Shown one piece after another: positions 7,463-62,265 of a stretch of 64,000 nt of DNA. Origin of the DNA: Paraflavisolibacter caeni (GTDB lineage: Bacteria; Bacteroidota; Bacteroidia; Chitinophagales; Chitinophagaceae); contig NZ_JAOTIF010000003.1 in the NCBI RefSeq assembly GCF_025628885.1, positions 1-64,000 of the forward strand. The letters are read 5' to 3'. Position 1 is the first letter of the stretch. The number at the start of each line of letters is the position of its first letter. The notes beneath the pieces are model-generated. The model was not told the origin of the DNA and made no database searches. It worked only from the letters and a program-made list of their open reading frames with translations. A program made the translations under genes and the position numbers.

Positions 7463-9922
7463 ATGAAGAAGATTTTTTGCTCATTGTTACTTGTCTCTTT
7501 TTGTATTGGGAAATCAACTTTAGCGCAGGAAGTTTATCAATTCACAAAGGCATTGACCATAACTTCTGTTCACCACTATGGCAGGGAGGCTATTTATACA
7601 GATCAATTGGCTTACCAGTATTTTGCAAATACTTTAAAAGCACCTGTTGCGGGTCAAACATTCGGGACCAACGATAGTGGGCAGACTGTAATTTGGAAGG
7701 CTCTTGAAGCTGACAGCCTGAACAGGTTTAGGACCAGGGAATTTGGAGGGGGTGGAACTTATTTGTATTTAACATATTCATCAGATAGGGATCGATCTGC
7801 CTTGCTTCATGTAAAAGGCAACAGTGCTCTTTTTTTCAATGGCGAACAACATACAGGTGATCCATATAGTTCCGGTTGGCTATATATTCCGGTTCAGGTA
7901 AAGAAAGGCTTGAACGAGATTTATTTACGCTCATTTGGTATGGTGCAAGCTCGGTTGCTGTTCCCGGAAAAACCAGTGATATTGAATGTTGAGGATCCAA
8001 CTATGCCCAGTATTGTATTGAATGAAAACAATAAAACTTTACAAGGTGCAGTTGTTGTGATCAATACTACTGCTCAAGCATTGAAAAATCTAAATATTAA
8101 AAGTAGGATAAATGGAAGTGAGCTAAACACGGCTTTACCTGTTGTTCCCGCACTTTCCATACGTAAAGTGAGTTTTGCATTGAATGCTGATGGCGTTGAT
8201 CAAAAAGGACAATTTGAATGTTCATTGGTTCTTTTACAAAATGCAAAGCCTATTGATGAGAAGAAAGTGACACTGGAGGCAGTCGGGCCTACCGAAAAGT
8301 ATAGCCAAACATTTATTAGTTATATTGATGGAAGTCTTCAGTATTATGCAGTAGCACCCCAAAATTCATCTTCTGATAACTCATCTCATGCACTATTTCT
8401 TTCTGTCCATGGAGCTGGGGTGGAAGCTATTGGCCAGGCAAAGGCTTACCAGTCAAAAGACTGGGGCACTTTAGTAGCAGCTACCAACCGGCGTCCTCGT
8501 GGCTTTAACTGGGAAGACTGGGGCCGTTTGGATGCACTGGAAGTATTACAATTAGCTAAAGATAGATTTAACCCTGACCCCAAACGGATCTATCTCACAG
8601 GCCATTCTATGGGCGGCCATGGCACCTGGTTCTTAGGAGCTACCTACCCGGATAAATGGGCCGCAATAGCCCCCTGTGCTGGCTATCCAACATTAAAAGA
8701 ATATGGTTCAGCTGATGGCAAGATCCCGGACAGTAGCAGGTCGCAAATGGAACAGATGTTACTAAGAGCAAGCAACCAAAGTGATGTTGTCAAACTTGTC
8801 AGCAATTACAAGCCCCTTGGCATTTACATTTTGCATGGAGATTCTGATAAAGTGGTTTCTGTGAATTATGCCAGGCAAATGAAAAAACAACTGGCTGATT
8901 TTCATGCTGATCTTAGTTACTATGAATATCCGGGAGGAGAACATTGGTATGGCAATGAAAGTGTAGACTGGAAGCCATTATTTGATTTTTTCAAATGGCA
9001 CCAAAAACTTCCTGATAGTTCATTGAATACGATTGATTTTATAACCTCTAATCCGGGCATTTCGCCTAGTAACCGCTGGGCATCAGTTCAACAGCAAATT
9101 CATCCATTACAATACAGCAGGATCAAACTAAACAGGAATAAGAATAAAAGAACAATCACAGGAACAACTGAAAATGTACAATTGCTTAAATTGGATCTTT
9201 CAAACTTTGGAATTCATACTACTGTAACAATTGATCTGGATAGCTTAAATAAAATAAGTTATACAACAAGTAGCGATCAGGATAGTTTGTACCTGCTGAA
9301 ACAAAATAATCAATGGGGTATTACAAATCAGCCTGGATTCGAACAAAAAGGCCCACATCGTTACGGAACCTTTAAAGAGGCCTTCAATTATAAAATGGTT
9401 TTCGTTTACGGTACAATAGGTTCAAAAGATGAAAATGAATGGAGCTTCAACAAAGCCCGTTATGATGCAGAAACATGGTATTATCGTGGCAACGGTGCAG
9501 TTGATGTAATATCAGATAAAGACTATTCACAGTCACTTTATAAAGGCCGGAATGTAATTATTTATGGAAATGCCAATTCAAATAGTGCTTATAAATTGTT
9601 ATTACAGTCGTGCCCTATTCAATTAGAACGTAATACAGTAAAAGCTGGCAACCATATTTGGAAAGGTGATGATTTAGCTGCTTATTTTATTTGGCCAATG
9701 AAAGGAACGAACAATAATTCAATAGGAGTAATTGGGGGAACAGGGCTGAAGGGAATGAATGCTGCAACTGGCAACCAATACTTTGCTGGAGGCAGTGGAT
9801 TCCCTGATTTTATGGTATTCAGTCTTGGTATGTTGCGCACAGGTGGAAATGAGGTGAAATTGGCCGGCTTTTTTGATAATGCTTGGAAACTTTCTGAAAG
9901 TGAAATGATTCAAAATAAATAA
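7463..9922 (+). CDS. Secreted alpha/beta-hydrolase, putative esterase or prolyl-oligopeptidase-like peptidase
   Basis: A large exported protein (819 residues) with a signal peptide ending near STLAQ. The centre, about residues 300-520, is an alpha/beta-hydrolase: the nucleophile elbow GHSMGG puts Ser382 at the active site, HGDSD gives Asp460 or Asp462, and GGEHWYG gives His494. The N-terminal 280 residues resemble beta-sandwich modules and the last 300 residues have no recognised domain. Such proteins remove acyl groups from glycans or cleave peptides; no substrate can be read here. It is the first gene after the terminator and precedes GH125, so a role in exposing glycans or cutting glycopeptides is inferred. 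Confidence 0.7.
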   Translation: MKKIFCSLLLVSFCIGKSTLAQEVYQFTKALTITSVHHYGREAIYTDQLAYQYFANTLKAPVAGQTFGTNDSGQTVIWKALEADSLNRFRTREFGGGGTYLYLTYSSDRDRSALLHVKGNSALFFNGEQHTGDPYSSGWLYIPVQVKKGLNEIYLRSFGMVQARLLFPEKPVILNVEDPTMPSIVLNENNKTLQGAVVVINTTAQALKNLNIKSRINGSELNTALPVVPALSIRKVSFALNADGVDQKGQFECSLVLLQNAKPIDEKKVTLEAVGPTEKYSQTFISYIDGSLQYYAVAPQNSSSDNSSHALFLSVHGAGVEAIGQAKAYQSKDWGTLVAATNRRPRGFNWEDWGRLDALEVLQLAKDRFNPDPKRIYLTGHSMGGHGTWFLGATYPDKWAAIAPCAGYPTLKEYGSADGKIPDSSRSQMEQMLLRASNQSDVVKLVSNYKPLGIYILHGDSDKVVSVNYARQMKKQLADFHADLSYYEYPGGEHWYGNESVDWKPLFDFFKWHQKLPDSSLNTIDFITSNPGISPSNRWASVQQQIHPLQYSRIKLNRNKNKRTITGTTENVQLLKLDLSNFGIHTTVTIDLDSLNKISYTTSSDQDSLYLLKQNNQWGITNQPGFEQKGPHRYGTFKEAFNYKMVFVYGTIGSKDENEWSFNKARYDAETWYYRGNGAVDVISDKDYSQSLYKGRNVIIYGNANSNSAYKLLLQSCPIQLERNTVKAGNHIWKGDDLAAYFIWPMKGTNNNSIGVIGGTGLKGMNAATGNQYFAGGSGFPDFMVFSLGMLRTGGNEVKLAGFFDNAWKLSESEMIQNK

Positions 9923-10000
9923 ATATCAGGCCTCAAGTAGAATCATTAAAGAGGCACTTTTTCAATTCTAATGTAAAAACCAAAAATGCATAATTGACAT

Positions 10001-11416
10001 ATGAACAGAAATGAATTTATCCGCAATACAGGTTTATTAGGAACAGGATTATTGTTAAGGAATTTTTCTTTTGCAAAAACATATGGAGAATTTCCCGAGG
10101 TCCGTACACCTCTCGATCAAAGGAAGTTTCACAGCAAGGCAATTGAAGATGCCATAGTTGAATTTAAAAATAATGTAAAGAATAAGGAATTAGGCTGGTT
10201 GTTTGAAAACTGCTTTCCCAATACTTTGGATACTACAGTAGAATTTGAAATGAAAAGTGGGAAGCCTGACACTTATGTGATTACTGGAGATATTGATGCA
10301 ATGTGGCTGCGCGACAGTACCGCCCAGGTTTGGCCTTACTTGAGTTTTATTAAGAAGGATAAAGATTTACAGCAACTCATTGCAGGTGTTATTAACCGGC
10401 AAACTAATTGTATCCTGAAGGATCCTTATGCGAATGCTTTTTACAAGGATGAAAATAAAATTAGTGAATGGAAGAGTGATCTAACTACCATGAAGCCTGG
10501 CATTCACGAACGCAAATGGGAAATTGATTCATTATGTTATCCTATCCGGTTGGCCTACCATTACTGGAAGATCAGTAGGGATACAACTCCTTTTGATGAA
10601 GAATGGCAACAGGCTATTAAAGCAACACTGAAAACCTTTAAAGAGCAACAGCGTAAACAAGGTAATGGACCTTACACATTTCAAAGAACTACAGCCTGGG
10701 CTACAGACGGCGTTCCTTTAGCAGGATACGGTTATCCGGTTAAACCTGTTGGATTAATTTGTTCTATGTTTAGGCCCAGTGATGATGCTACAATTTATCC
10801 TTTCCTCATTCCTTCCAATTTTTTTGCTGTCATAAGCTTAAAGCAAGCTGCTGAAATGATAAAGACGATGGCGAAAAATAACCAACTGGCAAGTGAACTG
10901 CTAAGCCTGGCTATTGAGGTTGAAACAGCATTACAGAAGTATGCGATCATCAATCATCCTCAGTATGGAAAGATCTATGCTTATGAAGTGAATGGCTTTG
11001 GTAGTTACAACTTGATGGATGACGCTAATCTTCCCAGTTTGTTGTCATTACCATATCTGGGAGCTATTCCTAATACAGATCCTATTTATATGAATACACG
11101 TAAGATGCTTTTATCTGAAAATAATCCTTTCTTCTTCAAAGGAAAGGCTGGCGAGGGCATTGGCGGACCGCATGCCGGTATGCATATGATCTGGCCATTA
11201 AGCATTATCACTCGTGGATTGACCAGCAATAATGTGCAGGAAATTAATAAATGTATCGAGACGCTGCGTAAGACACATGCAGATACGGGCTTTATGCATG
11301 AATCCTTTCATATGGACGATCCCTCGAAGTTTACCCGCAAATGGTTCGCTTGGGCAAATACCATATTCGGGGAGTTTTTATGGAAAGTATATCAGGAAAG
11401 GAAAATAGAAATTTAA
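10001..11416 (+). CDS. GH125 exo-alpha-1,6-mannosidase
   Basis: Metal-independent mannosidase of family GH125 (formerly DUF1237), 471 residues, the usual length. The family hallmark GDIDAMWLRDSTAQVWPY is at residues 96-113, followed by the GIHERKWEIDSLCYP segment, and by GEGIGGPHAGMHMIWPLSII near the C-terminus. The N-terminus (MNRNEFIRNTGLLGTG) looks like an export signal with an incomplete twin-arginine motif. Family enzymes remove non-reducing alpha-1,6-linked mannose from N-glycan arms after GH92 has taken alpha-1,2 residues. A GH92 gene follows after 17 bases, so the two are likely co-transcribed. Confidence 0.9.
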   Translation: MNRNEFIRNTGLLGTGLLLRNFSFAKTYGEFPEVRTPLDQRKFHSKAIEDAIVEFKNNVKNKELGWLFENCFPNTLDTTVEFEMKSGKPDTYVITGDIDAMWLRDSTAQVWPYLSFIKKDKDLQQLIAGVINRQTNCILKDPYANAFYKDENKISEWKSDLTTMKPGIHERKWEIDSLCYPIRLAYHYWKISRDTTPFDEEWQQAIKATLKTFKEQQRKQGNGPYTFQRTTAWATDGVPLAGYGYPVKPVGLICSMFRPSDDATIYPFLIPSNFFAVISLKQAAEMIKTMAKNNQLASELLSLAIEVETALQKYAIINHPQYGKIYAYEVNGFGSYNLMDDANLPSLLSLPYLGAIPNTDPIYMNTRKMLLSENNPFFFKGKAGEGIGGPHAGMHMIWPLSIITRGLTSNNVQEINKCIETLRKTHADTGFMHESFHMDDPSKFTRKWFAWANTIFGEFLWKVYQERKIEI

Positions 11417-11433
11417 GATTTAAAAACCGTCAA

Positions 11434-13746
11434 ATGTTGCTTGCTTTAAAATACTGTAAAAGAGCTTTTATATCACTGATACTTTGTTTGTTATTACTGG
11501 ATGCTGCTTCCCAGGTTTCGAACGCTGCCAGCTTGATTGATATGGTAAATCCTTTAATGGGCACTGCATCTAAGAATAGCTTATCAACAGGTAATACTTA
11601 TCCGGCTATCGCATTGCCTTGGGGTATGAACTTCTGGGTGCCGCAAACCGGCAAAATGGGGGATGGGTGGGTATATACCTACGATGCTGAAAAGATCCGC
11701 GGTTTTAAACAAACTCACCAGCCTTCTCCCTGGATCAATGATTATGGCCAGTTTTCTTTAATGCCGGTTACGGGTAAATTGAAGTTCAGGGAAGATGAGC
11801 GGGCAAGTTGGTTTTCTCATAAAGCAGAAACTGCAAAGCCATATTTTTACAGTGTTTACCTTGCCGATCATGATGTTGTTACTGAGATTGCGCCTACAGA
11901 GCGTGCTGCATCATTTCGTTTCACCTTTCCGCAAACAGACAGTGCTTTTGTTGTTTTAGATGCATTTGACAAAGGGTCCTTTGTCAAAATCATTCCTTCG
12001 GAAAATAAAATTATAGGATACACCACGAAAAATAGCGGTGGAGTACCCACAAACTTTAGGAACTATTTTGTGCTCTATTTTGATAAGTCTTTTGATATTA
12101 CCTATGTCTGGCACGACAGTATTCTAGTAAAGGATGCCTTGGAAATCATGACAGATCATGCAGGAGCAGCAGTCGGTTTCAAAACACGGAAAGGAGAAAG
12201 AGTAAATGTTAGAGCAGCGTCTTCTTTTGTCAGCTATGAGCAGGCAGAACTGAATTTACAGAGGGAATTAGGTAAAAATGAATTTGAAACAGTAAAGCAA
12301 AAGGCTAAAAATGTCTGGGAAAAGGAGTTTTCCAGGATTAAAGTGGAAGGTGGTACAGATGACCAGATACGAACATTCTATTCCTGTCTTTATCGAACCA
12401 TGCTATTTCCCAGGAAGTTTTATGAGCTTGATGCCAATGGGAAAGTGATTCATTACAGTCCCTACAATGGTAAAGTTTTGCCTGGCTATATGTTCACTGA
12501 TAATGGCTTTTGGGATACCTTCCGGGCAGTTTTTCCCCTTTTTAATCTCATATTCCCTTCCTTGAATGCACAGATTCAGGAGGGTTTGGTGAATGCCTAC
12601 AAGGAAAGTGGCTGGCTGCCAGAATGGGCAAGTCCTGGTCACAGGGATTGTATGATTGGCTCTAACTCTGCATCAATAATTACTGATGCTTATCTGAAAG
12701 GTATTAGAGGCTATGACATCAATATTTTGTACGAAGCGCTTTTGAAGAATTCTGAGAATGAAGGACCGTTAGGTTCTGTTGGACGAAAGGGAGTGGGTTA
12801 TTACAACCAACTTGGTTATGTACCTTATAATGTAGGGATCAATGAGAACGCAGCTCGTACACTCGAGTATGCCTATGCTGATTACTGCCTTTACCTATTG
12901 GCCAAGGAGCTAAAAAGACCTGCAGAAGAAATAGAAAGGTTTGCAAAACGTGCTCAGAACTACCGCAATCTTTTCGACCCGTCCCATAACTTGATGCGTG
13001 GGAAAAATAGTGATGGTGCTTTTATGTCTCCATTCAATCCGTTTAAGTGGGGTGATGCTTTTACCGAAGGGAATAGTTGGCACTATACATGGAGTGTGTT
13101 TCATGATGTGCAAGGACTAATTAGTTTAATGGGAGGTGAAAAGTCATTTGTAAAAATGCTCGACTCCGTATTTAAGGTGCCTCCCATTTTTGATGCAACA
13201 TATTATGGCTCTGTGATCCATGAGATTCGGGAAATGCAGATCATGAACATGGGAAATTATGCCCATGGAAATCAGCCGATACAACACATGATCTATTTGT
13301 ATAACTATGCTGGCGAGCCCTGGAAGACACAATATTGGGTTCGTGAGGTCATGAGCCGGCTATACTCGCCAACACCAGATGGCTATTGTGGCGATGAAGA
13401 TAATGGGCAGACATCGGCCTGGTATGTGTTTTCTGCTTTAGGGTTTTATCCTGTTTGTCCTGGTACGGACCAATATATTTTAGGGACGCCGCTGTTCCCA
13501 AAAGTAACTTTAAAACTGGAAAGTGGAAAAACAATAGCCATTACTGCACCATCCAATAATAAAGAAAACAAATACATTCAATCTCTATCAGTAAATGGCC
13601 GGTTATATAGGAAGAATTGGATTAGCCACAAGACTTTAATGCAAGGAGCTACATTGAATTTTTCCATGACAGCTTTACCCAATAAGGAAAGGGGGGCGAA
13701 TACTGATGCCTATCCCTACTCCTTTTCAGGAAAAAAGGAATTTTAA
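11434..13746 (+). CDS. GH92 alpha-mannosidase (first copy)
   Basis: Calcium-dependent exo-alpha-mannosidase of family GH92, 770 residues from the chosen ATG. That ATG begins a hydrophobic signal peptide (ALKYCKRAFISLILCLLLLD); the frame also extends back into the GH125 gene, but that part is highly charged and unlikely to be used. Family segments are present: VNPLMGTASKNSLSTGNTYP near the mature N-terminus, MFTDNGFWDTFRAVFPL, and the active-site stretch GDEDNGQTSAWYVFSALGFY near the end. GH92 enzymes remove alpha-1,2, 1,3 or 1,4-linked mannose; this gene's linkage cannot be decided. The pair with GH125 suggests high-mannose arm trimming in the periplasm. Confidence 0.92.
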   Translation: MLLALKYCKRAFISLILCLLLLDAASQVSNAASLIDMVNPLMGTASKNSLSTGNTYPAIALPWGMNFWVPQTGKMGDGWVYTYDAEKIRGFKQTHQPSPWINDYGQFSLMPVTGKLKFREDERASWFSHKAETAKPYFYSVYLADHDVVTEIAPTERAASFRFTFPQTDSAFVVLDAFDKGSFVKIIPSENKIIGYTTKNSGGVPTNFRNYFVLYFDKSFDITYVWHDSILVKDALEIMTDHAGAAVGFKTRKGERVNVRAASSFVSYEQAELNLQRELGKNEFETVKQKAKNVWEKEFSRIKVEGGTDDQIRTFYSCLYRTMLFPRKFYELDANGKVIHYSPYNGKVLPGYMFTDNGFWDTFRAVFPLFNLIFPSLNAQIQEGLVNAYKESGWLPEWASPGHRDCMIGSNSASIITDAYLKGIRGYDINILYEALLKNSENEGPLGSVGRKGVGYYNQLGYVPYNVGINENAARTLEYAYADYCLYLLAKELKRPAEEIERFAKRAQNYRNLFDPSHNLMRGKNSDGAFMSPFNPFKWGDAFTEGNSWHYTWSVFHDVQGLISLMGGEKSFVKMLDSVFKVPPIFDATYYGSVIHEIREMQIMNMGNYAHGNQPIQHMIYLYNYAGEPWKTQYWVREVMSRLYSPTPDGYCGDEDNGQTSAWYVFSALGFYPVCPGTDQYILGTPLFPKVTLKLESGKTIAITAPSNNKENKYIQSLSVNGRLYRKNWISHKTLMQGATLNFSMTALPNKERGANTDAYPYSFSGKKEF

Positions 13747-14027
13747 AATTCTGTCTAAGTGAAAATGCTTAGCAATAATTATTAAACTTTTGTCTTTTTT
13801 TTAAAAAGTTAATTAAATTTTTAAATAAGTTTCTATCTTAGTCGGGCATTTTATAAAGCTTTGCTGTTCTAAATATTGCAATTATGCAACATGGCTAATA
13901 AATGGCCGACAAGAGCTAAATTTCTGATGATTTATAACTGTTGAAATGGTTTTAGATCAAATTGTGCGTTCGACTTGTGGCAATCTGAAATAGGGTAGCT
14001 TAATTTATTTATAAACAATATATAAAG
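13747..14027. other. Intergenic region before CutC, probable promoter region
   Basis: 281 AT-rich bases with no gene. TATCTTAG at 13834-13841 is a near match to the Bacteroidota -7 element, but no good -33 partner was found. No terminator-like hairpin with a T-run was seen; GAATTTTAAAATTC at 13738-13751 is a loopless palindrome over the GH92 stop. A new transcription unit for CutC and GH29 probably begins here. Confidence 0.4.
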
Positions 14028-14756
14028 TTGGATTATACAATTGAAATAGCAACTACAGATTTCATTACTACTGAATCTGCTGTGAAAGGAGGGGCAGATC
14101 GAATAGAATTATGTAGTGCAATATCTGAAGGTGGGTTAACTCCTTCTATGGGTCACATCAGGAAATGCAGAGAAATGTTTGATCTACCTATTTTCCCAAT
14201 TATTCGTCCAAGAAGTGGTGATTTTCTATACACTGATGAGGAATTTGATCTGATGATGAGTGATGTAAAACTATGTAAAGAATTAGGATGTAATGGTGTG
14301 GTTATAGGGTTTTTATTAAATGATGGCATGATTGACAAGGTTAGGATTGAAACAGTTGTTCGTGCTGCTTATCCAATGGAAGTAACATTTCACCGTGCTT
14401 TCGATCGTTGTAAAGATCCTTTTATAGCTTTAGAAGAGTTGATAGAAGCAGGTTGCCAACGAATTCTCACTTCGGGTCAGCAAATAAAGGCCACAGACGG
14501 TCTTGATCTGATCAAACAATTAATTGAGGCTGCAGGTGATAGAATAATTATTATGCCGGGAAGTGGATTGAATCCAGCTAATATTAAGTATGTAGCTGAA
14601 GCAACAGGAGCAAGAGAATTTCATGGCGCATTGCGCAGTTCAGCTGAAAGTAAAATGGAATTTATGCTTCCGTCTTTCGCGGCTATAGGAGATTATATAA
14701 ACCCGGCTATTAAAGAAAATGATGTAAGGGAATTTAAAAAAGCATTGATGCTGTAG
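14028..14756 (+). CDS. cutC: CutC family protein
   Basis: Cytoplasmic TIM-barrel protein of the CutC family, 242 residues, the normal length. Conserved segments include GGADRIELC near residue 22, RPRSGDFLYTDEE, VTFHRAFDR, RILTSGQ and IIMPGSGLNPANI. The start is TTG: the family N-terminus begins there and no ATG lies close upstream in frame. CutC was named for copper homeostasis, but its biochemical role remains unclear and it often sits among carbohydrate genes in Bacteroidota. Here it heads a unit with a GH29 fucosidase 54 bases downstream, so a link to sugar metabolism is inferred. Confidence 0.85.
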   Translation: MDYTIEIATTDFITTESAVKGGADRIELCSAISEGGLTPSMGHIRKCREMFDLPIFPIIRPRSGDFLYTDEEFDLMMSDVKLCKELGCNGVVIGFLLNDGMIDKVRIETVVRAAYPMEVTFHRAFDRCKDPFIALEELIEAGCQRILTSGQQIKATDGLDLIKQLIEAAGDRIIIMPGSGLNPANIKYVAEATGAREFHGALRSSAESKMEFMLPSFAAIGDYINPAIKENDVREFKKALML

Positions 14757-14810
14757 ATCATATGCTTTTGTGATGTAGTCTTTAAAAACAAACAGTATAA
14801 TTTTTTCAAA

Positions 14811-16265
14811 ATGCGTCATATGAAGTTCTTATATGCTATTTTTCTTTGGAGCTTTATTATAGGATTTAATAATTGTATAGTAGCTCAGGAAAATGTTCAT
14901 CCTCAATCTTCAAAATATGAATGGCCTGAAGAAGCTGCTGTAAGAGCGAAACTTGAAAAATGGCAGGACCAAAAGTTTGGTATCATCATTCACTGGGGGT
15001 TATATGCTGTACCTGGTATTATGGAGTCCTGGAATCTTTGTTCAGAAGAATGGATTGACCGGGATAGCAATGTAACTTATGAAGACTATAAGCAATGGTA
15101 TTGGGGCCAAAAGGATAAATTTAATCCAGTAAACTTTAATCCTGATGATTGGGCTAAATACGCTAAAGAGGCGGGCATGCGTTATTTAGTGTTTACGACC
15201 AAGCATCATGATGGCTTCAATATGTTTGATACCAAGCAAACTGACTTTAAAATATCCAACGGTCCTTTTAAGAACAATGCCAAAGCAGATGTTGCTAAAT
15301 ATGTTTTTGAAGCATTCCGGAAAAAAGACTTCATGATTGGTGCATATTTTTCTAAGCCCGATTGGCATTCAGAATATTATTGGTGGCCGAAATATGCAAC
15401 CTCAGACCGTAACAATAACTATGATATTCGTAAGTTCCCGTGGCGCTGGAATAAATTCAAGGAATTTACTTATAACCAGATAAGCGAACTAATGCATGAT
15501 TATGGCTCTATCGATATTCTCTGGCTCGATGGAGGTTGGGTAAGGCCACGTGAAACTGTGAATGCAGAAGTGTTATCCTGGGGTGCGCGCATACCTGAAT
15601 GGAGTCAGGATATTGATATGCCAAAGATCGCTTCAATGGCAAGAACGGCTCAACCTGGTTTGCTAATGGTTGACCGGACCGTACATGGACCTTATGAAAA
15701 TTATCAAACACCGGAGCAAAGAATCCCCGAACAACAACTTGACCACCCTTGGGAAAGTTGTATGACACTTGCCAATAACTGGGGTTATGTACCAAATGAT
15801 CGGTATAAAACTTCTGCTAAGGTTATTCAGGTTCTTATAGAAGTGGTAGCTAAAGGAGGAAGCCTATTATTAGGCGTTGGCCCTAAACCAGATGGTACTT
15901 TGCCCGACGAAGCCGTTCAGCGGATGAAGGAAATTGGCCAATGGATGAACAAAAATGGAAAGGCTATTTACAATACCCGTACTACTAAGAATTTTCATGA
16001 AGGCAATGTCTGGTTTACACAAAATGTGAAAGAAGGCGTCCGGTATGCCCTGGTTTGTTTACCTGATCAGCAGCAAGTTGCCAAGGAAATCTCTTGGCAT
16101 AATAACCTGCCTAAAAAAGGCAGTAAAGTAAAGCTATTAGCTACCGGGGAAACAGTAAAGTGGAAAGCGGAAGAAAGCAAAGTAACTGTATACCTGCCTT
16201 CTTCCATCATTAATTCAAAAGAAACCTATCCGGCATTGGCCTTTTCGTTTACACCAGCTGATTGA
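14811..16265 (+). CDS. GH29 alpha-L-fucosidase (first copy)
   Basis: Exported retaining alpha-L-fucosidase, 484 residues. A signal peptide ends near NNCIVAQ. The catalytic barrel shows the family landmarks FGIIIHWGLYAVPG, TKHHDGFNMFDTK and DILWLDGGW, whose Asp240 is the predicted nucleophile. A short beta-sandwich closes the C-terminus. A second ATG at 14820 could be the true start; both lie before the signal peptide. It removes terminal or branching fucose from glycans, and in this locus N-glycan core or antenna fucose is the likely target. It differs clearly from the second GH29 at 29831 (SEEWIDRDSN versus SWSFHNKKIS segments), suggesting different linkages. Confidence 0.92.
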   Translation: MRHMKFLYAIFLWSFIIGFNNCIVAQENVHPQSSKYEWPEEAAVRAKLEKWQDQKFGIIIHWGLYAVPGIMESWNLCSEEWIDRDSNVTYEDYKQWYWGQKDKFNPVNFNPDDWAKYAKEAGMRYLVFTTKHHDGFNMFDTKQTDFKISNGPFKNNAKADVAKYVFEAFRKKDFMIGAYFSKPDWHSEYYWWPKYATSDRNNNYDIRKFPWRWNKFKEFTYNQISELMHDYGSIDILWLDGGWVRPRETVNAEVLSWGARIPEWSQDIDMPKIASMARTAQPGLLMVDRTVHGPYENYQTPEQRIPEQQLDHPWESCMTLANNWGYVPNDRYKTSAKVIQVLIEVVAKGGSLLLGVGPKPDGTLPDEAVQRMKEIGQWMNKNGKAIYNTRTTKNFHEGNVWFTQNVKEGVRYALVCLPDQQQVAKEISWHNNLPKKGSKVKLLATGETVKWKAEESKVTVYLPSSIINSKETYPALAFSFTPAD

Positions 16266-16312
16266 TTTTCTTGAACTGTTGAATTATTGTAATGAACAAT
16301 TAAATAACTCTG

Positions 16313-20717: not shown

Positions 20718-20720
20718 TTT

Positions 20721-23048: not shown

Positions 23049-23101
23049 AATAATCATACAGTTGCTTTTAACTAAATATTCAAGAATTTAATTAGATCAG
23101 A

Positions 23102-24115: not shown

Positions 24116-24176
24116 TACATTCTCCTTTCTTGCGGATCAATAAAAAGTACTGTTTTAAATACGAAAATGAATAAAA

Positions 24177-26105: not shown

Positions 26106-26113
26106 CTGATAAA

Positions 26114-29781: not shown

Positions 29782-29830
29782 GGCTTAATAAAATAATATT
29801 CAATACAATAAATCCAAATCAAAATAAACC

Positions 29831-38027: not shown

Positions 38028-38153
38028 CAATATAGAGCTATTGAACATAGACTGCCGATAAACAGCCTGGATACTGCTTAATCAAACAGATTTGATAATT
38101 GAAGTAAAAAGTTAAACTATAGTATTCTTTCATATACAGTAAAATTCCAAAAA

Positions 38154-41504: not shown

Positions 41505-41542
41505 CAGATGAATAATAGTATTCAGAGCATATAAAAACGAAT

Positions 41543-44101
41543 ATGAAAAGGATGAAATATCAAAGTTATTATTCAAGGTTTGCATTTTTAATGTTGTTAT
41601 TAAGTGCTGTGGGTTTCTTTAAAGGATTTTCACAGCCAGGCCCCATTACCAGAATGGGATCAACGAATACGATTTCATTTGATGAAGGCTGGTTTTTTCA
41701 GCGTTATGGATTGCAACCAGATGGTACGCGAAAAGAAGAACCCTCTGGTTTAGAAAATACTACATTCAACGATGCTGCCTGGCAAAAACTAAAGCTTCCG
41801 CATGACTGGGCTATAACTGGTCCTTTTAGAATAGAGTTGGAAGGATCTACCGGTAAACTTCCATGGAAAGGCATTGGTTGGTACAGAAAGCATTTTACTG
41901 TACCAGTAACAGATGCAGGTAAACAAATTTTTGTTGATTTTGATGGTGTTATGGCGAATGCTAAAATCTGGCTCAATGGAAAATATGTTGGCACATGGCC
42001 TTACGGATACTCTTCTTTCCGCATGGATCTAACGCCTTACATTATGCCTGGTAAAGAAAACATACTGGCCGTTCGTCTTGATACTGAAAATTGGGATTCG
42101 AGATGGTATCCCGGTGCCGGGATTTACCGCCATGTTTGGTTGGTAAAGACTGCACCTGTTCATGTGGATCATTGGGGTACATACATTACTACTCCCCAAA
42201 TCAACGATCAACAGGCGCTTGTAAATGTTGCTGTAACCGTGAGCAATCAATCCCAACAAGCGGCAAAGGCTATAGCTCAGACAATATTGTTTGAATTAGA
42301 TCCATCGAACAAGCCAACTAAAAAAGTAGCTGTTACCAAAGAAACCATAATTGATTTGAATGCCGGAGAACGGAAAGTTGTTGAGTCGCAGGCAACTGTG
42401 TTCAATCCAAAACGCTGGGACATTGAATCGCCCAACAGGTATGTGGCACAAACAACCATCAGAATGAATGGTAAAGTTATTGATACGTACTATACTCCTT
42501 TTGGCATCCGGACACTGGAGTTTACTGCAAGGAACGGGTTCTTATTAAATGGCAAGCGTGTTCAGATAAATGGTACCTGTAATCACCATGATTTAGGCGC
42601 CCTTGGTGCAGCGTTTAATCAAAGTGCATTAATACGGCAACTAAAGATGTTGAAAGATATGGGTTGTAATTCATTACGTACCTCACACAATCCACCAGCA
42701 CCCGAATTACTGGAATTAGCAGACAAAATGGGATTCTTAGTTTGGGATGAAGCGTTTGATGCCTGGAAAAAGGGGAAGCGTAAAAATGATTACAATAAAA
42801 TCTTTGATGAATGGCATGAGAAAGATTTGAAAGCACTTGTACATCGTGACCGAAATCACCCATCTGTTTTCATTTGGTCGATTGGTAATGAAGTGATGGA
42901 GCAGCAAAATGTGGAACTTACCAAACATCTGGTGGAGATTGTACAACGGGAGGACCCTACACGACCAGTTTCAAATGGATACAATGATCCGGATGGCGGC
43001 CGTAATTCCGGAGCTGCTACAGCACTGGGGCTTATGGGTGTGAATTATTTCTTTGGACAGCAACCGAAATGGGACGCTGACCCCCGATATGCCAACAAGC
43101 CGACAATTGGTAGCGAAACTTCATCTTGCGTTAGTACAAGAGGAGAATATTTCTTTGGTTCGAAAGATTATCAGAACTGGCAAATCTCTTCGTACGATTA
43201 TGCAAAGCCCGGTTGGGGATGCTCGCCTGATGAGCAATTCAGAACTAATGCAAAATATCCTCATTTGCTTGGAGAGTATGTATGGACAGGTTTTGATTAT
43301 TTAGGTGAACCTACTCCTTATAATTCTGATGAAACAAACCTGCTCAACTTTAGAACCGATCCTGATAAAAAAGAAGAACTCGAAAAGCAACTCGAACTGA
43401 TTCGTAAAAATAATCCGCCTTCGAGAAGCAGTTATTTTGGAATTATTGATCTGGCAGGATTTCCCAAAGATCGTTTTTATAGTTACCAGGCGCACTGGCG
43501 ACCCGATTTTCCAATGGCACATATTTTCCCTCATTGGAACTGGCCGGAAAGAATAGATTCAATTACTCCTGTACATGTGTACACATCAGGGGATGAAGCT
43601 GAATTGTTTTTAAACGGGAAAAGTTTAGGACGAAAAATCAAAACACCGGGAAAGGACTTCCGTCTTGTTTGGGATAGTGTTCGATATGTACCCGGTGAAC
43701 TAAAGGTGGTTAGTTATAAAAATGGGAAACAGTGGGCAACTGATGTTGTCAAGACAACCGGTGAAATGTCTAAACTTGTTCTTTCTGCCGACCGCAGTGT
43801 ATTAAAAGCAGGCCAGGATGATTTGTGCTTTATTACAGTTAAAGTAACTGATAAAGATGAACTAATGGTACCACGTTCTCATCCTCTTATTCAATTTTCA
43901 ATTGAAGGAGCAGGAGAAATTGTAGCAACAGACAATGGTGATCCTACCAGCTTTGTTCCTTTTCAAAGTCATGAACGTCCAGCATTCAATGGAATGGCAT
44001 TAGTGATCGTGAAAGCAAAAGGGGGAGCAAAAGGTAAGTTTACAGTACATGCAAAAAGTGAAGGATTGACAGGAGCATCTATAAAAGTAGAAAGCAAATA
44101 A
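41543..44101 (+). CDS. GH2 beta-galactosidase
   Basis: Exported GH2 enzyme of 852 residues; an in-frame ATG at 41552 is an alternative start before the same signal peptide. It shows the jelly-roll domain (LPHDWAITGPF, WYRKHFTVP), an Ig-like domain, and a barrel with NGTCNHHDLGALGAAF, SLRTSHNPPAPELLE, the acid/base WSIGNE with Glu450 and the nucleophile IGSETSSC with Glu525. The C-terminal DUF4982-like and Ig-like domains follow (ITPVHVYTSGDEAELFLNG). This architecture is typical of Bacteroidota exo-beta-galactosidases. It would remove antenna galactose. It is the last gene before the hairpin terminator at 44110. Confidence 0.9.
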   Translation: MKRMKYQSYYSRFAFLMLLLSAVGFFKGFSQPGPITRMGSTNTISFDEGWFFQRYGLQPDGTRKEEPSGLENTTFNDAAWQKLKLPHDWAITGPFRIELEGSTGKLPWKGIGWYRKHFTVPVTDAGKQIFVDFDGVMANAKIWLNGKYVGTWPYGYSSFRMDLTPYIMPGKENILAVRLDTENWDSRWYPGAGIYRHVWLVKTAPVHVDHWGTYITTPQINDQQALVNVAVTVSNQSQQAAKAIAQTILFELDPSNKPTKKVAVTKETIIDLNAGERKVVESQATVFNPKRWDIESPNRYVAQTTIRMNGKVIDTYYTPFGIRTLEFTARNGFLLNGKRVQINGTCNHHDLGALGAAFNQSALIRQLKMLKDMGCNSLRTSHNPPAPELLELADKMGFLVWDEAFDAWKKGKRKNDYNKIFDEWHEKDLKALVHRDRNHPSVFIWSIGNEVMEQQNVELTKHLVEIVQREDPTRPVSNGYNDPDGGRNSGAATALGLMGVNYFFGQQPKWDADPRYANKPTIGSETSSCVSTRGEYFFGSKDYQNWQISSYDYAKPGWGCSPDEQFRTNAKYPHLLGEYVWTGFDYLGEPTPYNSDETNLLNFRTDPDKKEELEKQLELIRKNNPPSRSSYFGIIDLAGFPKDRFYSYQAHWRPDFPMAHIFPHWNWPERIDSITPVHVYTSGDEAELFLNGKSLGRKIKTPGKDFRLVWDSVRYVPGELKVVSYKNGKQWATDVVKTTGEMSKLVLSADRSVLKAGQDDLCFITVKVTDKDELMVPRSHPLIQFSIEGAGEIVATDNGDPTSFVPFQSHERPAFNGMALVIVKAKGGAKGKFTVHAKSEGLTGASIKVESK

Positions 44102-44109
44102 AATTAGTA

Positions 44110-44160
44110 TCACTAAAAATATAAAGCCCGCTTATTTAGCGGGCTTTATATTTTTAGTGA
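44110..44160. terminator. Bidirectional intrinsic terminator, 23-bp perfect stem
   Basis: Arms 44110-44132 and 44138-44160 pair perfectly over 23 bases with the 5-base loop TATTT. The GC core AAAGCCCGC is flanked by A and T runs on both strands, so it can stop transcription from the GH2 gene on its left and the MFS gene on its right. Confidence 0.9.
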
Positions 44161-44187
44161 AATCTGAAAGAAATGATGCACTAAGTA

Positions 44188-45585
44188 TTATTTATTATTC
44201 TTCCAGAAAAGCTCTATTTCTTCCAGAGTTTTACCTTTTGTTTCAGGGATTTTTTTCCATGAAAGGTAGAATGCATATAAACTGAATAATGCAAAAACCA
44301 GGAAAGTAATTGATGCTCCCACATTGTGCAACATTAATGGGAAGAATTGTCCTACGACCCAATTAGCGATCCATAAGCTAATTGTTGAAATGGCTACAGC
44401 TTCGCCCCGCATTTTTGTAGGGAAGATTTCAGTAATCACAACCCAGGTTACTGGGCCAAAAGAAAAGGCGAAACATGCTATGAACAATACAATAGGTACC
44501 AATACCAATTGAGATGTAATATTTAGTGCAAAAAACAAGGCAGCCAGCAATAATGATAATACTGCACCGCCTATTCCCCATTGTAACAGGGGTTTCCTGC
44601 CTTTTTTATCAATCATGTAGATTGCAACAAAAGTAAACAGTGTATTTACAATACCTATGGTTACCTGACCACCCAACGCCTCGCCTAATTGAAAACCTGC
44701 TTTTTCTAAAATAGAAGGCCCGTAATAAATAATTGCATTGATGCCACTAAACTGGGATAAGGCAGCAAGAAGAATTCCAATAAAGATTGGTTTTTTCATG
44801 TTTCCATTAAAGACGCTCCATTTATTGGTCTCTGTTGTCTCACTTTGCAGAGAAGCTTGAATCCCATTGATTTCAGTGTTTGCTTGTTGTGCGTTGAGAA
44901 TCTTAGTTAATACCTGTTTTGCTTCATCTGTTCTTTTCTTCATTGCCAGCCATCGCGGGCTTTCAGGAATAAAGGCAATCATTACAACGAAAATGAGTGC
45001 CGGGATGATACCTGCAGCAAACATGCCCCGCCAAAACTCCTGATGAAATAATAATTGCTGCCAGTCAATATGTGAATTGCTACTATTATGAGCATAAGAC
45101 TGGATGGTTGCATTTGAAAAATATGCCAGAAGGATGCCAATGGTAATTGCCAACTGGTAATATGTTACCAGTTTACCCCTGATATGAGAAGGAGCAAGTT
45201 CGGCTATATACATCGGACAGATAACGGACGCTACTCCAATTCCCAGTCCCCCAATCAATCTGAAGACAATTAAAAAGAACGCGTCCGGTGCAAATGCGCA
45301 GCCAATGGCAGAAATGCCAAATAACAGGGCTGATAAAAGCATGACCTTTTTACGCCCCCAACGATCGCCCAGCCAACCACTTATGGCTACACCAGCAATA
45401 GAGCCCAGCAAAGCAGAGCTTACATACCACCCTTCCATAAGCGCACTCAAATTGTACTGTTGTTTAACAGAAGCAATTGTGCCTGAGATAACAGCTGTAT
45501 CAAAACCGAATAAAAAGCCTCCCAGGGTTGCGGTTATGGTAATTAAAGCCAGAAAGCGTGTGTTTACACTTGAGGTATTTTGCAT
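44188..45585 (-). CDS. MFS sugar porter (XylE/GLUT-like)
   Basis: Inner-membrane sugar:proton symporter of the sugar porter family, 465 residues with about 12 helices. Landmarks are GGFLFGFDTAVISG in helix 1, GWLGDRWGRKKVM, RLIGGLGIGVASVICPMYIAELAP, PESPRWL, and the second-half QFSGINAIIYYGPSI and DKKGRKPLL. The ATG at 45585 is used; upstream codons overlap the preceding gene. Its start follows the stop of the ROK-PMI fusion by a single base (TAATATG), so the genes are co-transcribed. Pairing with a kinase-isomerase for mannose makes mannose the best guess; glucose, galactose or xylose are alternatives. Confidence 0.92.
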   Translation of the reverse strand: MQNTSSVNTRFLALITITATLGGFLFGFDTAVISGTIASVKQQYNLSALMEGWYVSSALLGSIAGVAISGWLGDRWGRKKVMLLSALLFGISAIGCAFAPDAFFLIVFRLIGGLGIGVASVICPMYIAELAPSHIRGKLVTYYQLAITIGILLAYFSNATIQSYAHNSSNSHIDWQQLLFHQEFWRGMFAAGIIPALIFVVMIAFIPESPRWLAMKKRTDEAKQVLTKILNAQQANTEINGIQASLQSETTETNKWSVFNGNMKKPIFIGILLAALSQFSGINAIIYYGPSILEKAGFQLGEALGGQVTIGIVNTLFTFVAIYMIDKKGRKPLLQWGIGGAVLSLLLAALFFALNITSQLVLVPIVLFIACFAFSFGPVTWVVITEIFPTKMRGEAVAISTISLWIANWVVGQFFPLMLHNVGASITFLVFALFSLYAFYLSWKKIPETKGKTLEEIELFWKNNK

Positions 45586-45586
45586 A

Positions 45587-48298
45587 TTAGTTTTGATTAG
45601 ATGTACAAGATTCATTTTTTACATACGCTACCAGCAAATATGCTTTTCCTCCCTTTTGATTGAGTACTTTGTATTCCTGAACTGATGCAGGGATAATAAA
45701 TGTCTCAGCGTATTTGAAGACAGTTGTTTTGCCATTAACTATTACTTCAATTTCTTCGCCTTCTACCAACATGCAACAATGGCATTGTCCATTGGTCTTA
45801 ATGGTTGTATCATTTGTAAACTCGTACCTGTCTACGGTATAGAAATGTTCCGGATGGGTAGGAAGTTTGACTACTCTGCCTTCATTCCATTCTTTAATTA
45901 CTTTAGGGTGGGAGATCAGGTTTGAGCTGACATAGTCGCCTTTACGGTCAAAGTATAAATTGTTAAAGGCATGCTCGATATTTATAGGTCTTGGTTGGCC
46001 GTTCAGGTCTAAGCGAAGCCAGTCGTACATCTTAAAAGTAAAGATGTACGGCGTACTGCTTATTTCAAGCACTAAGTTATTTTTACCTGAAGCATGAACA
46101 GTACCGTTGGGTATTAAGAATAAGTCGTGTTTTTGAGCAGTGAAAGACTGCACATATTCTTCAACTTTGATTTCCTCGTTGTTTTTCTGGGCGTTTATCA
46201 GCGCTGATTTAAATTTAGAAGGTTCAATGTCATCCTGAAAACCCAAGTATACTTTTGCATCATCTGCGCAATCCAAAATGTAATAGGTCTCATCCTGTGT
46301 AAAGTTTTCGCCGAATTTTTCTTTAATATAATTGGTACGTGGGTGGCATTGTATGGAAAGATTACCGCCATCGAACGTATCCAGGAAGTCAAAACGGATC
46401 GGGAACTCTGTGCCAAATCTTTCAGCTGCTTTACCTAATAGACTTACTTTATTATAGTATAAGAGAAAGTCGAAAGATACTTCGAGCAAAGTATTATTAT
46501 TTTCAAGAACGATGCCGTTTTCGGGGGTTATTAATTCAAATGACCAGGCATAGTTCACTTCATCTTGTCTAAGGCCTGTCAATTTCTTTTTCATCCACTG
46601 TCCGCCCCAGACACCGGCTTCAAACCAAGGCCTTGCTCTTATGGCTTGTTGCAACATTTGGTTTAATGCACTTCTGAAATCGTTGCCAGCCATCCAGGTA
46701 ATATCATCTATTCGTTGTTCGTCAACTATGATATCCATTGAAGGGAGCAATTGCTGTTTGTGTATATTCAAAACTGGCCAATCAACAAAATAAAAACGTT
46801 TGTAAGACTGGGTGTTTTCTGTAGTTTTTGTAGTGCCTAGATTGGTTATGCTTTTGGCACGCATCCGGTATTGAATTTCATTTTTGGGCACGTCCAAATA
46901 AATCAATAATCCATCCCAGTTGGCCAATGATGCTCCTGTGCCATAAAGAATACACATATCCGCTGATGTATCTTGTTGCAGGAGGGAGAGTTTATTAATA
47001 TCAAAGAAATCAATTAGGTTGCCCGTATAACGTTTGCCAAAAACCGGATCGTTTCCATTCATATTTTCCGCAATCATTTCATCAATAACATCTTCCGGTT
47101 TGAGGCATGATGTAATATCATACCATAAAGGTTTGATCCCTTCTGCAACCAAAGCAGCATGTAATTGTGCCCTGAAGTGATTCCAAAGTACCCCGGAGTA
47201 GCCATCTATGATTACAGTTTTTTGGAATCCCATACTTTTTGCAAGTGAGGTAAACCCTCTTTCAATCTTTTGATTGGATAACTCGAACGCAGGAAAAATG
47301 TCATATTCTGTCTGTCCGTTGCTTGTTTTCTGAACAGGCAGTAAAGGCTGAGAAGTTTTTCTTAGTGATTGGCTATTCATTTGTTTATTGTGTATTGTTT
47401 TTTCTTTAGCAAGTATTGCAGCTCCTGTTATAATGTGTGTTTCTGTTTCTCCAGCTATCAATACTTCTGTATTGTTATATAAATTAGAGAGGGTATTTTG
47501 GAAGCCTTCGCCAAATAAATTCCAGGCTTTGGCAATATTCCCGCCAATGATCAATATGTTACATTCAAATTTTGCAAGCCAGGGATGCAGGAAGTTTGCA
47601 AGGTTTTCTCCAAATTGAATAAAAATATTTCTAGCTTCTGCGTCGTGCGCCGCAAGAAGTGCCAATTCCTTAACTGATGATATGGTCTTGCCTGTTTCAG
47701 CCTGGTAGGTATTCAGGAACCATCGAGTTGAAAAATAGTCATCAGCTATTGAATCTTTAAAACGTTCGCAGTAAAATGCACCTGCGGAGGGGATATTATC
47801 ATGTTGTTCTATCAATTTGCCATCTTGAATAAATGCAGATCCAAAGCCGGTGCCTAATGTAAGGCAGATAACATTTCCTGATTCAGCCTTGAAGTGATGG
47901 CAAGCTCCAACTGCAAAACAATGTGCATCATTTACAAAATGTACTTCACTATCCTTAGGCAGAAGGGAAAAGGTCTTTAATGCTTCTGCCATATTCAAAC
48001 CAAACAAGTTGCTAAACTTTCCACCTACACCATGTATTTCACTAATGCCCTGGACATAATTGAAAGGGCCAGGCATTGCAATGCCAACAGATAAAGATTC
48101 CTGTGTTTCTATTGCCAGTTCTGTGATTACAGAACAGAGGGTTTGAACGATTGAAACTGCGTCAGCATTTGAATCAAGTGATTTGTGAATGATGGATTCA
48201 TTGCTGTTGTTTGTTTCAGATGTTTTCACCAATGCACCGGAGATGTGGCTCCCGCCTACATCAATGCCGATTTGATACTGATTACTAATTGATGACAT
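45587..48298 (-). CDS. ROK sugar kinase fused to class I mannose-6-phosphate isomerase
   Basis: Cytoplasmic fusion of 903 residues. Residues 8-300 form a ROK kinase with phosphate loop GIDVGGSHISG at 11-21, catalytic Asp124 in FVNDAH and LTLGTGFGS; the cysteine-rich zinc motif of ROK kinases is absent. Residues about 340-520 form a middle domain (VIIDGYSGVLWNHFRAQL) resembling the N-terminal part of long Bacteroidota PMI proteins. From about 555 comes class I PMI, with VWGGQWMK, IQCHPRTNY (Gln650, His652) and PNGTVHASG (His735) as zinc ligands. It would phosphorylate mannose and convert it to fructose 6-phosphate, using the product of the mannosidases. GntR gene lies 42 bases upstream. Confidence 0.88.
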   Translation of the reverse strand: MSSISNQYQIGIDVGGSHISGALVKTSETNNSNESIIHKSLDSNADAVSIVQTLCSVITELAIETQESLSVGIAMPGPFNYVQGISEIHGVGGKFSNLFGLNMAEALKTFSLLPKDSEVHFVNDAHCFAVGACHHFKAESGNVICLTLGTGFGSAFIQDGKLIEQHDNIPSAGAFYCERFKDSIADDYFSTRWFLNTYQAETGKTISSVKELALLAAHDAEARNIFIQFGENLANFLHPWLAKFECNILIIGGNIAKAWNLFGEGFQNTLSNLYNNTEVLIAGETETHIITGAAILAKEKTIHNKQMNSQSLRKTSQPLLPVQKTSNGQTEYDIFPAFELSNQKIERGFTSLAKSMGFQKTVIIDGYSGVLWNHFRAQLHAALVAEGIKPLWYDITSCLKPEDVIDEMIAENMNGNDPVFGKRYTGNLIDFFDINKLSLLQQDTSADMCILYGTGASLANWDGLLIYLDVPKNEIQYRMRAKSITNLGTTKTTENTQSYKRFYFVDWPVLNIHKQQLLPSMDIIVDEQRIDDITWMAGNDFRSALNQMLQQAIRARPWFEAGVWGGQWMKKKLTGLRQDEVNYAWSFELITPENGIVLENNNTLLEVSFDFLLYYNKVSLLGKAAERFGTEFPIRFDFLDTFDGGNLSIQCHPRTNYIKEKFGENFTQDETYYILDCADDAKVYLGFQDDIEPSKFKSALINAQKNNEEIKVEEYVQSFTAQKHDLFLIPNGTVHASGKNNLVLEISSTPYIFTFKMYDWLRLDLNGQPRPINIEHAFNNLYFDRKGDYVSSNLISHPKVIKEWNEGRVVKLPTHPEHFYTVDRYEFTNDTTIKTNGQCHCCMLVEGEEIEVIVNGKTTVFKYAETFIIPASVQEYKVLNQKGGKAYLLVAYVKNESCTSNQN

Positions 48299-48340
48299 GT
48301 TTAATTATTTCAAGGATATATAATGCAGTTTTGAGTTCGG

Positions 48341-49093
48341 TTAAAGCTCTCTTTTAATTTCAATGCTATAGGTAAACCAATCGCTTCTGTAGTAACAAAC
48401 ATTATATTCAATTGGGCGTTTGCCAGCATCTAACACTAAGCGTTTCCGTTCTAAAACAGGTTCACCTTTTTTTATTTTTAAAATATCAGCAATTCTTTGT
48501 GTGGCTGCAATAGCCCGTATTTCTTCCCTGGATATCAAGGGCACAATATGAAACTCTTCATCCAGCATTTCATATAATGGCTTTTCGAAATCTTCATTTC
48601 CTGTCAGGCCAATCCGTGGGTGAAACCATGATTCGAAATATACCATTGGATTTTTGCCTGTGCTGCGTATACGTTGAAGATATACTAACTGAGTGTCTTC
48701 TTTGATGTCTAAAAAGCCTTCCACTAATTTTGTGGCTTTTTTCATTTCGGCCTTTAATAGAAGGTTATGAAACGGAATGCCTTTGTCTTCCATCTCATGT
48801 GTAAAGCTGACCCAATTACTGAGGTTTGTTGAAATTTTTTTATCTGTAACCCTTGTTCCGCTTCGCTTTTTTCTTTCCAGCAATCCCTCATTGACGAGCT
48901 TATCAATAGCCTGCCGCAATGTGTTACGTGAAATGCCCCAACGTTTGGCCAGATCAGTTTCCTTAGGAAACAACTGCCCTTTTCTGTATTCCGGACTTTT
49001 CACAAGCAATCTAAGTTTCTCTTCAGCCTGCCGGTGTAATGGCCGTTCATCATTATGATCTAAAAGTGGTATTTTGTTCATATGTTCGAACAT
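48341..49093 (-). CDS. GntR-family regulator with UTRA domain (HutC type)
   Basis: Cytoplasmic transcription factor of 250 residues. The N-terminal winged helix (residues about 15-85) contains FPKETDLAKRWGISRNTLRQAID and the wing RKKRSGTRV. The UTRA effector domain follows (LVYLQRIRSTGKNPMVYFESWF to YYRSDWFTYSIEI). UTRA regulators of this group often sense sugar phosphates such as GlcN-6-P, so the neighbouring kinase-isomerase and porter are probable targets. ATGs at 49093 and 49081 are both possible starts; a palindrome at 49081-49094 overlaps them and may be its operator. Confidence 0.9.
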   Translation of the reverse strand: MFEHMNKIPLLDHNDERPLHRQAEEKLRLLVKSPEYRKGQLFPKETDLAKRWGISRNTLRQAIDKLVNEGLLERKKRSGTRVTDKKISTNLSNWVSFTHEMEDKGIPFHNLLLKAEMKKATKLVEGFLDIKEDTQLVYLQRIRSTGKNPMVYFESWFHPRIGLTGNEDFEKPLYEMLDEEFHIVPLISREEIRAIAATQRIADILKIKKGEPVLERKRLVLDAGKRPIEYNVCYYRSDWFTYSIEIKREL

Positions 49094-62256: not shown

Positions 62257-62265
62257 TGTCTGAAT

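Follow-up and report, generated by a model that had tools for sequence, protein, structure and literature searches.

The first 64,000 bases of the 297,347-base contig C23 of Paraflavisolibacter caeni (genome of 7.01 Mb in 89 contigs), a member of the Bacteroidota as its SusC/SusD genes also suggest, called the window here, contain a polysaccharide-utilisation locus at 887-49093. Its gene content makes it a probable locus for complex N-glycans, most likely of the plant or insect type, in which a divergent relative of PNGase F would release the glycan and a glycosylasparaginase (GA) and a set of exo-acting enzymes would finish the work. An earlier note on this DNA had placed an N-glycan dismantling locus at 7463-49093 and proposed that it uses PNGase F and GA instead of an endoglycosidase (ENGase). 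Every gene named in it is present there by family models and PDB matches, and the gene content speaks for an N-glycan locus that holds a PNGase F relative and a near-complete exo-enzyme set. That list was incomplete: the GH3, GH95-like, CutC, CBM9, GHL10 and esterase-like genes had been overlooked, together with a SusC/SusD pair farther left (2260-7298), which along with the carbohydrate-active enzymes marks the region as a polysaccharide-utilisation locus. Coding frames were assigned from Pfam, NCBIfam and PDB matches, 33 window proteins (30 + 3) were scanned against family models at E<=1e-3, and the activities named are those predicted from families (GH, glycoside hydrolase). The genes of the locus are these:

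887-2065, plus strand: ROK-family regulator, likely the transcriptional regulator of the locus (Pfam ROK, 1.3e-46)
2260-5682, plus strand: SusC-like TonB-dependent transporter (Plug and carboxypeptidase-regulatory-like domains)
5715-7298, plus strand: SusD-like lipoprotein (SusD-like_2, 1.7e-54)
7463-9922, plus strand: esterase / prolyl-oligopeptidase-like protein (Pfam Esterase, 6.9e-9; 61% homologue in the G403 PNGase locus)
10001-11416, plus strand: GH125 alpha-1,6-mannosidase (Pfam GH125, 7.8e-173; 74% in G403, 71% beside GA-CutC in G367)
11341-13746, plus strand: GH92 alpha-mannosidase, GH92a (GH92 catalytic, 1.7e-182; 68% beside GH125, CutC and GA in G367)
14028-14756, plus strand: CutC-family protein (CutC, 1e-68; signal peptide not evident by eye)
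14811-16265, plus strand: GH29 alpha-L-fucosidase, GH29a (1.8e-98; 70% in G403; 46% homologue fused to a PNGase in G270)
16313-18511, plus strand: GH3 of beta-xylosidase type (Pfam GH3)
18508-19632, plus strand: CBM9-like protein (CBM9_1, 7.2e-15; 4-bp overlap with each neighbour)
19629-20717, plus strand: GHL10-like hydrolase (GHL10, 4.2e-8; twin-arginine-like start by eye)
20721-23048, plus strand: GH92 alpha-mannosidase, GH92b (2.7e-181; 71% in G403, 65-68% on three Hymenobacter plasmids near GA-CutC)
23102-24115, plus strand: GA with a twin-arginine-like RRxF start (1.4e-108 to the Flavobacterium glycosylasparaginase 9gaa)
24177-26105, plus strand: NagB-type glucosamine-6-phosphate deaminase fused to a PIG-L deacetylase domain (PRK02122, 1032.7 bits; Pfam Glucosamine_iso and PIG-L)
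26084-27844, plus strand: GH2 beta-mannosidase-like protein (Glyco_hydro_2_N2, 6.3e-64)
27841-29781, plus strand: PNGase F-superfamily amidase of a divergent clade (N-glycanase_C, PDB and profile alignments)
29831-31174, plus strand: GH29 alpha-L-fucosidase, GH29b (2.4e-87; an 80% identical gene directly follows the PNGase on the Hymenobacter NBH84 plasmid)
31641-33521, plus strand: GH20 beta-N-acetylhexosaminidase (7.2e-124; HxGGDE motif)
33569-35779, plus strand: possible GH36-like protein (weak profile match to the alpha-galactosidase 2xn0, 3.8e-5)
35835-38027, plus strand: GH95-like protein (GH95 catalytic, 5e-20)
38154-41504, plus strand: GH38-like alpha-mannosidase (17-sequence profile against the GH38 structure 3lvt, E 6.6e-18)
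41543-44101, plus strand: GH2 beta-galactosidase-like protein (GH2 domains and DUF4982)
44188-45615, minus strand: MFS sugar transporter (Sugar_tr, 4.4e-117)
45587-48298, minus strand: ROK kinase fused to a mannose-6-phosphate isomerase-like half (ROK, 1.9e-18; MPI cupin, 3.7e-5)
48341-49093, minus strand: GntR/UTRA regulator (UTRA, 2e-28)

All listed genes from 887 to 44101 thus share the plus strand, and the last three (44188-49093) lie on the minus strand. The ten genes from GH29a to GH29b (14811-31174) are separated by intergenic distances of -22 to +61 bp, with 4-bp overlaps at the GH3/CBM9, CBM9/GHL10 and GH2/PNGase junctions. Because of this tight spacing GA and the PNGase are probably co-transcribed, and 14811-31174 is likely a single transcript. 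A promoter scan of positions 1-2400 was uninformative (11 matches against 11.2 expected). The contig begins 886 bases before the ROK gene, and the left flank falls outside the visible sequence.

The predicted amidase would lead the proposed pathway. It is matched by Pfam N-glycanase_C (PF09113; E 3.6e-15, 56.4 bits against a cut-off of 25) and not by N-glycanase_N (PF09112), which finds only a gene on contig C1 in this genome. Its residues 58-323 align with the PNGase F structures (1pgs/3pms) across both domains at E 3.6e-16, and a 17-sequence profile improves this match to E 3.9e-28. The window protein has D87 and E234 as the equivalents of D60 and E206, the key catalytic residues of PNGase F, and both are invariant in 17/17 sequences (the window protein and 16 others). 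The C terminus weakly resembles a type IX secretion tail, through a profile match (E 0.0018) to a segment of endonuclease I that is presumably such a tail. An AlphaFold2 model built without an alignment had a mean predicted local distance difference test score (pLDDT) of 33.5 and was discarded. The excerpts of Crouch et al. 2022 (PMC9522356) on which we draw tie position 118 to the fit of core alpha-1,3-fucose, with Glu or Asp in type I enzymes and Gly in type II. When conserved aromatic residues are aligned, position 118 falls on Thr150 of the window protein (some relatives have Ala or Ser), which is followed by an invariant Gly151; the PDB profile alignment differs in this column, leaving a gap in the loop and pairing E118 with E153. 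Judged from these alignments, the clade matches neither the type I nor the type II signature plainly. The genome has two further PNGase F-superfamily genes, one on C1 (L008:8153-9817) that is PNGF-II-like (502 bits to 4r4x) and one on C34 (L010:7338-9266) that is 40% identical to the window PNGase.

GA is assigned by score, with 366 bits to the Flavobacterium enzyme 9gaa versus 134 to the best isoaspartyl peptidase/L-asparaginase. Its autoproteolysis site (H195-D196-T197) and its RRxF start are invariant in 17/17 sequences of the genus. According to the portion of the Lactobacillus casei study (PMC6960285) used here, PNGases require more than two amino acids whereas glycosylasparaginases use a single Asn. 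The two enzymes would then be complementary. Human glycosylasparaginase is blocked by core fucose in the same account, and a fucosidase beside GA would make sense for that reason.

Several of the remaining assignments are less direct. The GH92a frame overlaps GH125 by 76 bp, and its real start may be further in. For the GH3 protein the best seven PDB matches are named xylosidases, with beta-glucosidases ranking lower (among the best 60 of 64 matches). With 586 residues the GH2 beta-mannosidase-like protein is short, and Pfam recognises only its N-terminal GH2 domains, not a catalytic domain. No Pfam or NCBIfam model matches the GH38-like protein at E<=1e-3, curated GH38 models included; the label is kept because solved GH38 enzymes are found at 6.6e-18 with a profile built from 17 relatives. 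The GH36-like protein likewise has no Pfam match. Of 298 genomes of the order (order counts come from 298 or 396 genomes), 16 have the GH38-like gene and 31 the GH36-like gene, the latter at up to 80% identity. In the ROK fusion, the half resembling mannose-6-phosphate isomerase reaches 24.1 bits, short of the Pfam cut-off of 27.

Related loci help to show which of these genes belong together. GA turned up in 17 of the 18 genus genomes sampled and the window-type PNGase in three, the sole genome without GA being 62% complete; we therefore rejected GA as the dedicated partner of the PNGase. Among 396 order genomes, 71 have a match to the PNGase at E<=1e-60. The G047 locus combines ROK, SusC/SusD, PNGase, GA, CutC, GH92, GH29b, a further GH29-type protein, GH27 (our label for an alpha-galactosidase A match), GH95 and GH20. 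Genome G403 has a stretch with ROK, SusC/SusD, four unrelated frames, esterase, GH29a, GH3, CBM9, GHL10, GH92b, GH125 and PNGase, in which the enzymes from the esterase onward are 55-74% identical to those of the window and one extra unmatched frame follows the esterase. GA is absent from this PNGase locus; the G403 copy lies ~90 kb away from the PNGase and is accompanied by CutC, GH29b and a GH18 gene. On the Hymenobacter NBH84 plasmid, GH27, PNGase (67%), GH29b (80%), ROK and SusC/SusD occur together, with GA absent from the 25.9-kb stretch read. Genome G270 (L067:1704-5042) encodes a natural fusion of a PNGase F-type domain to a GH29 fucosidase, 1,112 residues long. Homologues of the ROK regulator, 58-63% identical, stand beside SusC/SusD in G047, G403, G398, G401 and NBH84, and the window SusC and SusD share 72% and 73% identity with their counterparts in the G398 GA locus. 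Hence the proposal that PNGase and GA act instead of an ENGase describes the window locus but is not a rule. The PNGase-GA pairing is seen in the window and in G047 but not in the G403 PNGase locus or the NBH84 stretch; and, while no ENGase was found in the window locus, a GH18 gene is part of the GA loci of G401, G403 and H. tibetensis. The likeness to lysosomes drawn in the earlier note is loose, as lysosomes use glycosylasparaginase and are not known to use a PNGase of the window type.

From these families a pathway can be sketched. Glycopeptides would be bound and imported by SusC/SusD, and the PNGase-superfamily enzyme would cleave the GlcNAc-Asn amide bond on them. One GH29 would take off fucose, the GH2 galactosidase galactose and GH20 GlcNAc; mannose would be removed by the GH92, GH125 and GH38-like enzymes. 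GH3 would remove core xylose and the second GH29 core fucose, leaving the core to be finished by the GH2 beta-mannosidase and GH20. Single-residue glycan-Asn, unusable by the PNGase, would be handled by GA after loss of core fucose, and the ROK kinase/isomerase and NagB would channel mannose and GlcNAc into catabolism. Both marks of plant N-glycans, beta-1,2-xylose and core alpha-1,3-fucose, would be covered by this set, and Bacteroides massiliensis uses PNGase, GH92, GH3, GH29, GH2 and GH20 on plant N-glycans (PMC9522356, in excerpt).

Several observations weigh against this reading. Families do not reveal linkage specificity, and no characterised enzyme was found in the PNGase clade. The E118 acid of PNGase F seems to be replaced by Thr, and the type II N-terminal bowl-like domain is missing, the PNGase F match starting at residue 58 and leaving no room for it; in the passages of PMC9522356 used here this domain is dispensable in PNGF-II. 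Scores also favour type I PNGase F (61.9 bits) over PNGF-II (25 bits). The window SusC is only 29-30% identical to the SusC of the G047, G403 and NBH84 PNGase loci. In nine of the 11 relatives' PNGase neighbourhoods first read, no other window homologue lies nearby, and the PNGase may therefore have another role. A plant glycan is also hard to reconcile with the NBH84 locus, where a sialidase-family gene lies ~10 kb from the PNGase.

These points bear in part on the possibility that high-mannose or mammalian-type N-glycans are the main substrates of the locus, with the GH3 and the fucosidases acting on other glycans. The large mannosidase set (GH125, two GH92 and the GH38-like protein), the type I leaning of the PNGase scores and the AGE-epimerase gene that accompanies the sialidase-family gene in NBH84 would all suit such substrates. 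We nevertheless regard this as unlikely, since the GH3 is of the xylosidase type, adjoins GH29a in G403 as well and is followed three genes on by GH92b; the type I acid that blocks core alpha-1,3-fucose seems to be absent from the PNGase; and no sialidase family occurs among the 33 window proteins. Chance juxtaposition of several carbohydrate loci, for plant cell-wall or fungal glycans, is a quite improbable account. It draws on the different gene subsets held by G047 and G403, on the GH36-like gene of the 31 order genomes, and on the GHL10-CBM9 pair, which occurs without a PNGase. A GHL10 match is found in 44/396 genomes; in 11 GHL10 loci read in other genomes, CBM9 is present in 10, a GH92b homologue in two and a PNGase homologue in none, although G403, outside those 11, has GHL10 in its PNGase locus. 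GHL10 as part of the PNGase system is weakened by these counts. The tight gene spacing argues against chance, as do the ROK-SusCD-PNGase-GH29 sets that recur in the genus and in Hymenobacter; characterised PNGases, moreover, act on N-glycans only (PMC10154615, in the part drawn on here). The CBM9-GHL10 pair (18508-20717 in the window) recurs as a unit in other genomes.

It is also distinctly unlikely, in our judgment, that release is really the work of a GH18 or other endoglycosidase encoded elsewhere in the genome, with the PNGase-like protein secondary. As in the earlier note, no GH18, GH85 or GH33 is visible in the locus itself: no GH18, GH85 or sialidase family was found among the 33 window proteins at E<=1e-3, and GH85 has no match anywhere in the genome. 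Two GH18 genes exist, one on C23 and one on C40, and either could supply ENGase activity, which counts against a PNGase-led pathway. The former (C23:82742-83761) is on the same contig, 33.6 kb right of the locus edge, and is separated from it by a sulfatase, a two-component system, two SusC/SusD pairs and other genes (read by eye only beyond 64 kb). The flank check for an adjacent ENGase that the earlier note had called for accordingly finds none on the visible right side, this chitinase-like gene being the nearest GH18. Its best PDB matches are named chitinases, it scores below the cut-off of the EndoS-type model (20.9 versus 27 bits, in a run made without an ENGase positive control), and it is 22-26% identical to the GH18s of G401 and H. 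tibetensis; as an enzyme of the H. tibetensis type it was rejected, the identity being 26% only. The C40 gene is the better candidate for the rival, passing the EndoS-type model over part of its length (34.4 bits, cut-off 27) and sharing 33% identity with the GH18 of the G401 GA locus, but its match to the general GH18 model is much stronger (272 bits). The GH18 genes of the G401, G403 and H. tibetensis GA loci and the presence of GHL10, a hydrolase without an assigned role, also favour an endoglycosidase, while neither GH18 of this genome is located in the locus. Taken together, release by the PNGase with GA and exo-enzymes finishing remains our preferred explanation.

Each ingredient of that explanation is known already: PNGase-led degradation of plant N-glycans, SusC/SusD loci with GH92, GH3 and GH29, and glycosylasparaginase catabolism. 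Closest are the Bacteroides (Phocaeicola) massiliensis plant N-glycan pathway and the B. vulgatus and B. helcogenes PNGase loci, where in the excerpts of Crouch et al. 2022 (PMC9522356) release is PNGase-led, with GH92, a GH3 xylosidase, a core GH29, a GH2 galactosidase and GH20 acting in order and SusC/SusD present in some loci. Unlike in B. massiliensis, whose carbohydrate-active enzymes lie in several loci according to the same excerpts, the window has one run that adds GH125, GH2 beta-mannosidase-like, GH38-like, NagB and GA, and its PNGase clade differs from the PNGases described there; a word search finds no occurrence of the term glycosylasparaginase in that paper. The all-in-one arrangement that the earlier note called unusual is present as a single run of genes, with PNGase-based loci themselves already described (PMC9522356). 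The Xanthomonas nix cluster similarly combines one enzyme cluster for plant N-glycans with a TonB-dependent receptor, and an asparaginase gene is reported from its neighbourhood, but its glycosyl hydrolase NixF is reported to cut between GlcNAc units, and a PNGase is not mentioned for it in the parts of PMC5700972 consulted. The window, with no GH18 or GH85 among the scanned proteins, does not match this ENGase-led type (nix, B. thetaiotaomicron). In the L. casei fucosyl-GlcNAc-Asn pathway a fucosidase is followed by glycosylasparaginase, as envisaged here; unlike the window, that enzyme has no signal peptide, its substrate is a small glycoamino acid and the pathway involves no PNGase, at least in the portion of PMC6960285 used. 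Plasmid loci of Hymenobacter (NBH84, H. tibetensis, H. volaticus and DG25B) share either PNGase-GH29b-ROK or GA-CutC-GH92b with the window at 41-80% identity, but PNGase and GA never occur together in the four stretches read, and in H. tibetensis a GH18 lies near GA. Four Hymenobacter plasmids (L203-L205, L208) carry the PNGase or the GA module. Spread of these modules by plasmids is suggested. A literature search limited to one paper library found no paper describing a PNGase-glycosylasparaginase locus of the window's make-up. The locus is a fuller, one-locus version of the PNGase strategy known from gut Bacteroides: a compact enzyme set predicted from families to remove plant- or insect-type N-glycans completely, including the final steps on the core, which in the best-studied gut system fall to other loci.

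The conserved pairing of GA with CutC is the most novel lead to come out of the locus. CutC matches its Pfam model at 1e-68, yet misses the NCBIfam equivalog cut-off (225.7 versus 311). In 16 of the 17 genus genomes cutC directly follows GA on the same strand; 14 were established by frame calling (gap of -92 to 330 bp, no intervening frame), and G400 and G407 were added by tblastn, frame calling having overlooked CutC there. The window is the exception, its CutC lying 8.3 kb upstream of GA in the same locus, and the row of G367 (GA, CutC, GH125 and GH92a, without a window-type PNGase) resembles the GH125-GH92a-CutC row of the window. Three Hymenobacter plasmids carry GA and CutC with a 4-bp overlap. 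Of the plasmid records, 25 have a GA-family match, of which seven regions were read, and 56 a CutC match, of which two more were read. No CutC homologue lies near GA in both Persicobacter regions or in those of Sphingomonas and Latilactobacillus (17-25 kb each), and the CutC of a Parabacteroides plasmid record adjoins ATP synthase genes, with GA not among its neighbours. In a Phocaeicola massiliensis plasmid record (L212), CutC adjoins a GH29 homologue of ~30% identity, without GA. With four GA regions lacking CutC and two CutC regions lacking GA, the pairing is a lineage feature and not a rule. It has the look of an older module, present across the genus, that in the window occupies one locus together with the PNGase module. 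Two easily confused modules, the genus-wide GA-CutC unit and the sporadic PNGase unit, can be told apart here.

The GA-CutC unit offers a handle on the biochemical role of CutC. We put forward, as a speculation that we consider unlikely, that CutC is a catabolic enzyme of glycan-Asn breakdown and not (or not only) a copper protein, and that the PNGase beside it is the first studied member of a third PNGase F class. Our guess is that CutC might process the 1-amino-GlcNAc (glycosylamine) arising from GA and PNGase; if true, nitrogen and sugar could be used without waiting for spontaneous glycosylamine hydrolysis.

To the right of the locus, 51245-51847 is a 200-residue open frame, rich in lysine and arginine and without a Pfam match, that may not be a gene. 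The region around it (49452-63765) encodes a sulfatase, a LytTR regulator with a histidine kinase and two further SusC/SusD pairs, and is probably a separate set.

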